Shown here: piece by piece, positions 33,258 to 35,601 of the stretch
Position numbering within the stretch: the stretch's first letter is position 1
Layout: each line of letters starts with the position of its first letter
NCBI RefSeq assembly: GCF_002943425.1
Contig: NZ_PTRA01000001.1
Span: 2,666,001-2,730,000, forward strand
Length of the DNA stretch: 64,000 bases
Origin: Siphonobacter curvatus
Lineage (GTDB): Bacteria > Bacteroidota > Bacteroidia > Cytophagales > Spirosomataceae
Direction of reading: 5' to 3'
Notes under the pieces: model-generated
What the model was told of the DNA's origin: nothing
Database searches by the model: none
What the model saw: only the letters and a program-made list of their open reading frames with translations
Program-made: the position numbers and the translations under genes

Positions 33258-33863
33258 ATGTACTTAATCCTTGGTTTTATAATTGTCTTAGCTTTGGGTG
33301 TTTGGCTGGCCTACGAAGTTACCACCGCCCCTACCGTCAACGAAAACGAAGAAGTCATCGCGGGCCCAGGGCTTTCTGCGGTGGACTTTCCCGAATCAAA
33401 TGTGGTTTTCGCTAAAGACCAGCCCGAATACCGACCCCTCCCTGGGTTCAAATCCCCAGATTCTCCGCATGGTGAACTGATTACTTGTTGGAAGTTAACG
33501 CCAGGACAGCGTTTGAAAATCGTTTTCACGGGTAAGATTTGGCACCTGAGTTTAACTTTCAACGACCCTTTACAACCGCTTTACCTGACCGTCAATAAGC
33601 ATGATGTGCTCGTACCCATCGAGCGGAAACCGCAAAAAGGTTACTTCAAAAAGCTTTGGGATAGCATTCGTTACCGCTTCTACATGCTTCGCTATTCTGG
33701 CGCAGTGGCTTGGTATATCCGTATGCGGGAAACGAAAGCTGATTGGTTTCCTCTGCTAAAAATCTTTACGGCTATTGCCCTTATCGCACTGGCTATTTAC
33801 CTGGGAGCTAGTCACCCAGCCGATCAAATGAAAGGTTTCACCAAGCCCTACGCAAGCCGATGA
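33258..33863 (+). CDS. Phage membrane protein with two anchors
   Basis: 201 residues from ATG 33258. An N-terminal membrane helix MYLILGFIIVLALGVWLAYE, a soluble middle part of about 130 residues, and a second helix near the C-terminus (LKIFTAIALIALAIYLGASH). No recognised family. Overlaps the next gene by ATGA. Confidence 0.6.
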   Translation: MYLILGFIIVLALGVWLAYEVTTAPTVNENEEVIAGPGLSAVDFPESNVVFAKDQPEYRPLPGFKSPDSPHGELITCWKLTPGQRLKIVFTGKIWHLSLTFNDPLQPLYLTVNKHDVLVPIERKPQKGYFKKLWDSIRYRFYMLRYSGAVAWYIRMRETKADWFPLLKIFTAIALIALAIYLGASHPADQMKGFTKPYASR

Positions 33864-34306
33864 ACAACATACCTACCATGCAGGAAGTCGCTCAGCGGGT
33901 ACACGCTGACCACTACAAGGGTACCATCAACGGAATCATCCTGGCTGGCGTGATTCCGGAATACGGCGGGGAACCTTCCATCTACATGAACACAAAGGTT
34001 GATACCGAGTGGCTAAAATGGGTCGGCGTGCTGGCCAATGCGGCTCGGGAAGTAAACGGTGAGTGGGAGCCTAATTGGAATGATGAGAAAGAGGAAAAAT
34101 GGTTCTTTGAAATTGATGCCGATTGTCATAACCACATTGGATACGACTATTCGCGGGAAATGGTCAGAGGCAACGTGGTTTTCATGGGCTTGTCAGCAAT
34201 GATCCGTTGCCGCGAAATTCTGAACGAGTGGAGTAAGCAACAAGGCCTTGAGGAAGACGGTATTTTGCTCAGAGCCCTGGGCGTGGTAAAAGGGTGTAAG
34301 CAGTGA
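33860..34306 (+). CDS. Conserved phage protein, unknown function
   Basis: 148 residues with Trp-rich segments (TEWLKWVGVLANAAREVNGE, NWNDEKEEKWFFEIDADCHN). No catalytic motif recognised. Its stop overlaps the GTG/ATG region at the methyltransferase start. Confidence 0.6.
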   Translation: MNNIPTMQEVAQRVHADHYKGTINGIILAGVIPEYGGEPSIYMNTKVDTEWLKWVGVLANAAREVNGEWEPNWNDEKEEKWFFEIDADCHNHIGYDYSREMVRGNVVFMGLSAMIRCREILNEWSKQQGLEEDGILLRALGVVKGCKQ

Positions 34307-35601
34307 CCCACGCTAGTTTATTCTCAGGCATCGGAGGGTTCGATTTAGCCGCTGAGTGGATGGGTTGGGAGAACCTCTTTCACTGTGAAATAAACCCCTT
34401 TTGTACGCAGATTCTTAAATACTACTGGCCGAATGCAGTCCACTATTCCGACATCAAACAAACCGACTTCACGCCCTGGCGAGGCAGAGTTGACGTACTC
34501 TCGGGAGGCTTCCCTTGCCAGCCTTTCAGTTCCGCAGGAAAGCGAAAAGGCACAGCTGATGACCGCTACCTCTGGCCAGAAATGCTACGAGCAATACGAG
34601 AAATCGAGCCTACATGGATCGTCGGTGAGAACGTTCGCGGACTTGTTACTTGGAACGACGGCATGGTCTTCGAGCAGGTGTGTGCTGACCTGGAAGCTGA
34701 AGGCTATGAAGTACAAGCGTTCGTTATTCCTGCTGCAGGCGTCAACGCTCCCCATCGCAGAGAAAGAGTATGGTTTATTGCCTACGCCGACCGTAGCCGA
34801 CACGATTGGCGGGGACAACGCCAAAACGGTGAGTCTGGAAAACGGACGATATGTGAGAACATCAATGACGACAGGTTTGAAGTTCGGAGCCAAGCTACAA
34901 CATGTAGTACAGTTACTTCCGACGCCGACCGTAGTGGACACCGGAGCGACTACGAGTTTGGACAAAATCGACCAGCGTCGCTTGAGAGCGAAGGCTTCGG
35001 GCAAGAATGGAAACGGGTTCGGACAGTCACTGGGGGAAATGGCTCAGAGGAAACTACTTCCGACCCCTTTAGCCTCGGATTCAGGAGAGAAAGTGACGGG
35101 GAGGGAGAGCCAAAACTCCCTAGTCAAAATGAACAGAAACGGGCTTTTGCCAACACCGACTCAGACAAACGCCCATCAGGGGGTGAACTCGACCAACAAT
35201 CAAGGCAAGCCCCTTCTACCAATGGTTGCCGCCATGTTGGGCACTCCAACGGCCAACATGCGAGTACGAAGCAATCAGTTTCAAGCGGGCCGGGCCCCGA
35301 ACCCGGTAGAATTCGCAACCTCTCTGATACCAACCCCTACAACGAGAGATTGGAAAAGCCCAGATGTCAACCCCAACAGCAAAAGACACATGGTGAATTC
35401 GGAGTTAAACACAAAAATGGCTCAAGAGCTTGGTCAGAATTCCCAACTCAATCACCGCTTCGTAGCCGAGATGATGGGTTTCCCACCCGACTGGACGGAA
35501 TTACCGTTTCTAAGCTCCGAACCGAATCCATAAAGGGCTTTGGCAATGCGGTTGTTCCGCAAGTAGTCTATCGAATCTTTCTGACGATTCTGTTCAGTTG
35601 A
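34303..35601 (+). CDS. dcm: DNA (cytosine-5) methyltransferase, with a dual-coding C-terminal half
   Basis: 432 residues; the start is a GTG (34303), coupled to the preceding stop. Motif I ASLFSGIGGFDLAAEWMG, motif IV PCQPFSSAGKRKG with the catalytic Cys, motif VI ENVRGLVTW, motif VIII RRERVWFIA and, at the end, motif X GFGNAVVPQVV. Between VIII and X (about residues 165-400) the sequence is low-complexity (repeats of ADADRS/ANTDSD type) where the target recognition domain should be, and a second open frame runs through this part. It may protect phage DNA from host enzymes; no partner endonuclease is adjacent. Confidence 0.92.
   Translation: MTHASLFSGIGGFDLAAEWMGWENLFHCEINPFCTQILKYYWPNAVHYSDIKQTDFTPWRGRVDVLSGGFPCQPFSSAGKRKGTADDRYLWPEMLRAIREIEPTWIVGENVRGLVTWNDGMVFEQVCADLEAEGYEVQAFVIPAAGVNAPHRRERVWFIAYADRSRHDWRGQRQNGESGKRTICENINDDRFEVRSQATTCSTVTSDADRSGHRSDYEFGQNRPASLESEGFGQEWKRVRTVTGGNGSEETTSDPFSLGFRRESDGEGEPKLPSQNEQKRAFANTDSDKRPSGGELDQQSRQAPSTNGCRHVGHSNGQHASTKQSVSSGPGPEPGRIRNLSDTNPYNERLEKPRCQPQQQKTHGEFGVKHKNGSRAWSEFPTQSPLRSRDDGFPTRLDGITVSKLRTESIKGFGNAVVPQVVYRIFLTILFS
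34433..35533 (+). CDS. Overprinted ORF in the +1 frame of the methyltransferase (LLPTP-repeat protein)
   Basis: 366 codons wholly inside the methyltransferase gene, in the +1 frame. It contains a recurring LLPTP element (EYGLLPTPTVADT, VVQLLPTPTVVDT, KLLPTPLASDS, NGLLPTPTQTN, SLIPTPTTRDW) and the ending FVAEMMGFPPDWTELPFLS, which looks like real protein rather than chance. The repeats lie opposite the ADxD repeats of the methyltransferase frame. Similar pairs of frames occur in other phage cytosine methylases as far as I recall. Whether it is translated alone or by frameshift cannot be seen. Confidence 0.55.
   Translation: MQSTIPTSNKPTSRPGEAELTYSREASLASLSVPQESEKAQLMTATSGQKCYEQYEKSSLHGSSVRTFADLLLGTTAWSSSRCVLTWKLKAMKYKRSLFLLQASTLPIAEKEYGLLPTPTVADTIGGDNAKTVSLENGRYVRTSMTTGLKFGAKLQHVVQLLPTPTVVDTGATTSLDKIDQRRLRAKASGKNGNGFGQSLGEMAQRKLLPTPLASDSGEKVTGRESQNSLVKMNRNGLLPTPTQTNAHQGVNSTNNQGKPLLPMVAAMLGTPTANMRVRSNQFQAGRAPNPVEFATSLIPTPTTRDWKSPDVNPNSKRHMVNSELNTKMAQELGQNSQLNHRFVAEMMGFPPDWTELPFLSSEPNP

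Follow-up and report, generated by a model that had tools for sequence, protein, structure and literature searches.

Background

M.EcoHK31I (YGGCCR) is a methyltransferase composed of two polypeptides. Its large chain contains motifs I-VIII and X, the small chain contains motif IX only, and the recognition domain is predicted to reside on the large subunit (PMC3404938). For M.AquI, the same source places motifs I-VIII on the large chain, and the distal variable (recognition) region together with motifs IX-X on the small chain (PMC3404938). A hidden out-of-frame HNH endonuclease, the ShiLan element, has been reported in actinophage methylases (PMC11855218). Here we describe a cytosine-5 (C5) methyltransferase gene of Siphonobacter curvatus that contains a second long gene in the +1 frame. 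It lies in a stretch of 64,000 nucleotides (contig NZ_PTRA01000001.1, positions 2,666,001 to 2,730,000), below called the window. The frame-0 product, chain A, contains motifs I-VIII and X; the +1 product, chain B, consists of a conserved N-terminal domain (below, the +1 domain), a series of PTP repeats and an end similar to motif IX. Substitutions in related genes show both frames to be under selection, and the arrangement is common to related genes in many bacterial viruses. We consider it likely that the overlapping genes specify the two chains of one DNA (cytosine-5) methyltransferase, the recognition chain being overprinted on the gene of the catalytic chain.

Distribution of the two-frame gene

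Viral contigs were scanned with the +1 protein of the window (80 of 170 loci kept), and genome contigs with the sole peptide pattern FVxxMMGFP (80 of 135 loci kept). Viral scans with the Paenibacillus phage and Streptomyces phage versions gave 60 and 16 loci, respectively. Annotated records and whole-genome matches were added, and 258 loci were classified in all. All were collected for their resemblance to the +1 protein or its family, and methyltransferases in general are therefore not sampled at random.

The standard layout has the catalytic domain in frame 0, the +1 domain and the motif-IX-like end in the +1 frame, and motif X in frame 0 again. It was found in 209 of the 258 loci. After removal of eight repeated places (L081, L083, L089-L094) the count is 201 of 250; in these, judged by sequence and layout, motif IX is on a second polypeptide and the remaining core on the first. 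At least four further whole-genome loci duplicate genome-contig loci (L082/L103, L085/L116, L086/L153, L087/L111), L031 is the same as L087, and L001 equals the locus of the window. The viral loci include many near-identical ones; 147 standard loci remain after a k-mer filter. By source, the standard layout was observed in 80/80 viral loci found with the +1 protein, 78/80 loci from genome contigs, 33/60 loci of the Paenibacillus-query set and 0/16 loci of the Streptomyces-query set. In the Paenibacillus-query set, the +1 domain itself was located in the +1 frame in 54 of 60 loci. In the Streptomyces-query set the motif profiles mostly fail and the layouts differ. The profiles were built on Bacteroidota-type loci, and thus the misses in distant loci are partly due to insensitivity.

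The phrog_1008 profile, which matches chain B, was run over 395 genomes of the phylum and detects the family in three, counting the own genome; one of these is a 24-position match in a 32-codon frame. Among relatives it is found in 7 of 59, again with the own genome included. A 57-kb IMG/VR viral contig (L001) encodes an identical (100%) +1 protein, which is consistent with a prophage origin of the locus.

In several near pairs (L009/L014, L018/L061 and others) the best matches have 96-100% identity over only about 70-74% of the gene. This is suggestive of recombination inside the dual-coding gene. In a plasmid of Bacteroides finegoldii (L259, NZ_OY725938.1) the dual-frame gene is situated near the gene for Hachiman HamA and a DEAD/DEAH helicase gene.

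Selection in the two frames

Substitutions were compared in 41 pairs of relatives; five further pairs in range were dropped as they had no FPTQSP marker, and codons with local nucleotide identity below 70% were excluded. A set of 15 pairs uses each locus only once; it still includes loci that are copies of others (L009/L010, L014/L015, L040/L041). Outside the overlap, frame 0 is constrained. In the catalytic domain and in the motif IX/X end both frames are constrained. In the middle (PTP repeat) region only the +1 frame is constrained, and frame 0 changes freely there while staying open. At the motif-IX-like end the third-position diversity falls to 0.06-0.26 of the expected value, and synonymous diversity is normal again past the +1 stop, in the motif X part.

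The low-complexity ADxD repeats of frame 0 are the PTP repeats of the +1 frame read one base earlier (e.g. LLPTPTVVD over VTSDADRSG). Thus the two repeats noticed initially are one repeat, the same DNA underlying both. The ADxD middle of frame 0 is a stop-free passenger of the PTPT codons.

The +1 frame might be an open frame arising by chance, or a compositional shadow of a conserved methyltransferase with biased composition. When the methyltransferase protein was fixed and synonymous codons were shuffled (5000 permutations and 5000 resamplings), a +1 run of at least 379 codons, the length observed in the window, was obtained in 2 permutations and 1 resampling, and at least five P(T/S)P motifs in the +1 frame in 0 and 5, respectively. 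Long +1 runs are easier in this gene than in an average one, the shuffles averaging 127-161 codons, and the codon shuffling taken alone is modest evidence against chance. The comparative evidence decides. Between the beginning of the +1 domain and the end of motif IX the standard loci, 201 in number, comprise 51,253 codons, with 14 stops in frame 0, one in the +1 frame and 3,480 in the +2 frame. In the part between motifs VIII and X, 490 PTP-type units lie in the +1 frame, against 14 in frame 0 and 6 in the +2 frame. The excess of +1 similarity is confined to the overlap, and in the middle region it is the +1 frame that is conserved and frame 0 that drifts. The initial annotation had named loss of the second frame in homologues, or free stops in it, as the sign of a chance frame; the single +1 stop in these codons is the opposite of that. 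Given the frame-specific substitution pattern and the stop counts, we reject a chance frame or compositional shadow, and consider it next to impossible.

Structure of the locus and of the two chains

The coordinates and frames of both open reading frames (ORFs) proposed initially (34303-35601 and 34433-35533) are correct. The GTG codon of chain A overlaps the stop codon of the ORF just upstream (33860-34306). The +1 frame is open already from position 34394, 379 codons in total. Of the repeat units, five are of the L(L/I)PTP type (at 34775, 34913, 35054, 35144 and 35324) and one is LGTPT (at 35237). The features are listed in Table 1.

Table 1. Features of the overlapping genes, in window positions. 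The motif numbers in chain A are those we take to apply to C5 enzymes.
Feature	Position	Strand	Comment
Chain A, C5-cytosine methyltransferase with motifs I-VIII and X	34303..35601	+	frame 0; GTG start; 432 amino acids
Chain B, second protein	34433..35533	+	+1 frame; ATG start; 366 amino acids; start uncertain
Catalytic motifs of chain A	34315..34767	+	positions by sequence and alignment to M.HhaI
Motif I	34315-34344		
Motif IV (GGFPCQ)	34504-34521		
Motif VI (ENV)	34624-34635		
Motif VIII (APHRRER)	34747-34767		
Conserved N-terminal domain of chain B (MTATSGQKCYEQ ... CVLTWKLKAMKYKRSLFLLQAS)	34559..34744	+	overprinted on motifs IV-VIII
PTP repeat region of chain B, six units	34775..35350	+	frame-0 reading is a low-complexity ADxD linker
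Motif-IX-like end of chain B (QLNHRFVAEMMGFPPDWTELPF)	35444..35509	+	constrained in both frames
Conserved frame-0 stretch FPTQSPLRSRDDGFPTRLDG	35440-35499		overlapped by the motif-IX-like end of chain B
Motif X of chain A (ESIKGFGNAVVPQVVYRIF)	35524..35580	+	frame 0 again

Chain A matches the Pfam family DNA_methylase (E 1.5e-45), and its alignment with M.HhaI covers residues 5-162. Motifs I, IV (PCQ), VI (ENV), VIII and X, characteristic of C5 methyltransferases, are all present. This chain shows no recognition domain and no motif IX, and a motif-IX-like segment is found in the +1 frame. In the AlphaFold2 model of chain A the confident parts are residues 1-170 (with dips near 71-80, 111-120 and 141-150) and approximately 411-431. 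Nearly all of residues 173-403 have a predicted local distance difference test score (pLDDT) below 50 and no secondary structure. The observation that the methyltransferase frame lacks a visible target recognition domain is thereby borne out, residues 173-403 being predicted to be disordered.

Chain B of the window matches phrog_1008, labelled "DNA methyltransferase" (E 2e-33), and the same profile matches all 92 aligned chain B members. None of these 92 has a Pfam match at the 0.01 threshold, and searches of Pfam, NCBIfam and PDB sequences with the +1 protein of the window gave no match. The end of chain B, LNPxFVxEMMGFPPDWT, resembles C5 motif IX.

Parts of the enzyme in different frames

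In other phages the PTP/motif-IX part is seen in frame with the catalytic domain. Frame-0 PTP, motif-IX-like and motif-X-like segments were found in L098 (Gordonia phage Gudmit), L226, L247, L250, L252, L253, L254 and L256; frame-0 segments similar to motifs IX and X were found in L100 and L246. When the +1 proteins were compared by profile with these ten frame-0 proteins, the PTP-IX part matched with a probability of 97.3% and E 1.8e-11. Frame 0 ends after motif VIII in Streptomyces phage Samy (L096), L243 and L244, and there the PTP repeats and motifs IX and X are in the +1 frame. In L195, L224, L228 and L230 motif X is likewise in the +1 frame. Each locus holds about one complete set of methyltransferase parts across the two frames, and this is our main argument that the products form one enzyme.

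A mosaic gene, suggested initially for this locus, is realised literally in these other relatives, where the repeat units, motif IX or motif X are in the other frame. The related suggestion that the alternative frame encodes the true C-terminal domain holds broadly, as the +1 frame probably carries the recognition part and ends in the motif-IX-like segment; motif X of the window is still in frame 0.

Around positions 3001-3670 of L229, PTP repeats and motifs IX and X follow an integrase-like frame, and no catalytic domain was found there. The PTP-IX-X part can thus occur alone, perhaps as a remnant or a mobile recognition module.

C5 catalytic domains are generally regarded as ancient and universal. 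The N-terminal domain of chain B occupies the bases encoding motifs IV-VIII, and in none of 233 loci was it found without the catalytic domain. This is most simply explained by overprinting. We are inclined to think that the recognition chain is a long-lived overprint which originated in the +1 frame of its own catalytic domain, its N-terminal domain being found only there, in phages and prophages of Bacteroidota, Firmicutes and, with weaker matches, Actinobacteria. In this scenario recognition units would move between frames by insertions and deletions, specificity would be re-tiled between one-chain and two-chain enzymes, and the frame-0 stretch over the repeats would be kept only stop-free.

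Translation of chain B

In 222 of 233 loci an ATG codon lies near the beginning of the +1 domain (-120 to +60 nucleotides), although frame 0 may partly force ATG there. In the Paenibacillus-query set a Shine-Dalgarno match of at least 5 bases was found in 16 of 32 non-redundant internal start contexts, compared to 4.3 on average and at most 12 in 2000 synonymous shuffles. Together, these data strongly suggest separate initiation of chain B. The exact start is uncertain, as 118 of 201 loci share a second candidate, the in-frame ATG that lies at 34559 in the window.

Another possibility, raised in the initial annotation, is programmed +1 frameshifting that fuses the catalytic frame to the +1 frame, producing one long methyltransferase. 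Parts of one enzyme are indeed coded by two frames, and the order of parts in Samy (motifs I-VIII in frame 0, then PTP, IX and X in +1) would yield a complete enzyme after one shift. However, in the window and the 201 standard loci translation would have to shift twice, motif X being in frame 0 again. Moreover, the +1 frame is constrained already upstream of motif VIII, inside the catalytic domain, which is needless for a shift after this motif. Programmed frameshifting also assumes no separate initiation of the second frame, and the internal ATG codons and the excess of internal Shine-Dalgarno sites in the Paenibacillus-query set speak indirectly against this. Early stops are a weak further point: in six loci (L126, L140, L142, L149, L150, L221) frame 0 is stopped at codons 2-16 and the +1 frame is open, but all six have a frame-0 ATG at codons 17-19, and thus they carry little weight. 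As the main route to the second product, frameshifting is therefore disfavoured, and we regard it as improbable. The other initial proposal, an overprinted two-protein gene, agrees with a second protein and two constrained frames.

Function of chain B

The two-chain enzyme that we favour could work as follows. Chain A would provide the S-adenosylmethionine-binding catalytic core with motifs I-VIII and end in motif X, the region between them forming a disordered tether kept stop-free. Translation of chain B would start at an ATG inside the catalytic domain, giving the overprinted domain, then the PTP repeats and the motif-IX-like end. Chain B most likely supplies the target recognition half, and the chains would assemble as those of two-chain C5 enzymes do. 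Without chain B, chain A would not be expected to methylate a specific site. Chains A and B presumably bind each other, B would confer the specificity, and the product may protect phage DNA from restriction.

Several observations weigh against this reading. In the remaining, mostly Bacteroidota-type loci a Shine-Dalgarno match was found in 2 of 177, no excess over the background; Bacteroidota make little use of Shine-Dalgarno sites. At codons 67-84, within the overlap, synonymous diversity is about 0.9, near normal, and thus the constraint from the +1 frame is uneven. Chain B gave a weak structural model (mean pLDDT 59.9, predicted template modelling score 0.30), and Foldseek returned no match at E <= 0.001. 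In M.EcoHK31I the predicted recognition domain is on the large chain (PMC3404938), whereas in the present locus frame 0 shows no such domain and the +1 frame holds the PTP repeats. Between the catalytic start and motif X, frame 0 is interrupted in 14 of 209 loci, versus one for the +1 frame (L217). The +1 frame is open in 13 of the 14 loci with broken frame 0, L221 among them. Chain B may thus be kept where chain A is broken, and could have a role of its own. Six of the interrupted loci (L006, L017, L045, L046, L072, L077) have a stop-bearing insertion of 6 or 9 bases at frame-0 codons 76-81. It occurs in three sequence versions and falls exactly between P and C of GGFPCQ. Frame 0 on either side keeps the third-position excess, the upstream differences between L006 and L017 being 11/7/41 by codon position. 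This may reflect read-through, hopping or a recent break.

Both proteins could therefore be made with chain B not being a methyltransferase subunit, acting instead as a separate phage protein, e.g. a regulator or an anti-restriction factor. The intact chain B in loci with interrupted chain A, and its lack of matches to solved or curated families, would fit such a role. On the other hand, the PTP/motif-IX part of chain B matches the C-terminal part of one-frame phage methylases, the very part that frame 0 lacks. The middle of chain A drifts and yet stays open, and in none of the 233 loci was the conserved +1 domain seen without the catalytic domain. We therefore consider a separate function of chain B rather unlikely, and retain the two-chain methyltransferase.

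Other interruptions of frame 0 were observed as well. Bacteroides-type prophage loci L140, L142, L149, L150 and L176 contain TGA codons in frame 0 with the +1 frame open; L140/L142 and L149/L150 are near copies. Two of these TGA sites correspond to tryptophan in relatives, and L176, whose contig begins inside the gene, has one such site. Decay or recoding of TGA may be the cause. Single frame-0 stops with an intact +1 frame occur at codon 9 in L126, codons 2 and 386 in L221 and codon 217 in L073. The L126 stop comes from an extra TAA-bearing stretch in motif I.

Comparison with described systems

Annotations of tailed phages rarely include long same-strand overlaps with deep conservation. The present one can be followed through about two hundred loci and shows clean frame-specific selection. 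If our interpretation is true, it explains phage cytosine methyltransferases that seemingly have no recognition domain, as well as the methyltransferase label on "LLPTP" proteins. The proposed two-chain enzyme is open to test, and the locus provides a natural system in which to follow the evolution of two protein sequences on one DNA stretch.

No account of the overlap was found in the literature among the matches listed, most subscription journals lying outside the search. It is not mentioned in the available passages of the paper on 48 Paenibacillus larvae phages (PMC6070908). In GenBank, the nested gene of Paenibacillus phage Diva is annotated as "g49 internal gene", and the record of Samy lists a "DNA methyltransferase domain protein" that is related to phrog_1008. 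The phrog_1008 and Diva proteins belong to the same family as chain B, and the Diva gene has the same nested position. These entries are a label or annotation only and describe neither selection nor layout or function.

Similarly to the ShiLan element, chain B is encoded within a phage methylase gene but in another frame. Unlike that element, a homing insertion in the third frame, it overprints the catalytic domain and carries methylase-type sequence. The division of parts in M.AquI resembles that in Streptomyces phage Samy, L243 and L244. In the window, by contrast, frame 0 encodes motif X, and the overlap with the second gene extends into the catalytic domain.

A close likeness in layout is seen with M.EcoHK31I, with motifs I-VIII and X on one chain and motif IX on the other. 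Unlike M.EcoHK31I, the present type of locus is phage-borne and widespread. The ORF for the small chain of M.EcoHK31I is said to lie inside the gene of the large chain, in another frame. If so, this kind of arrangement is known, and the present locus would be its widespread phage variant with a different division of parts.
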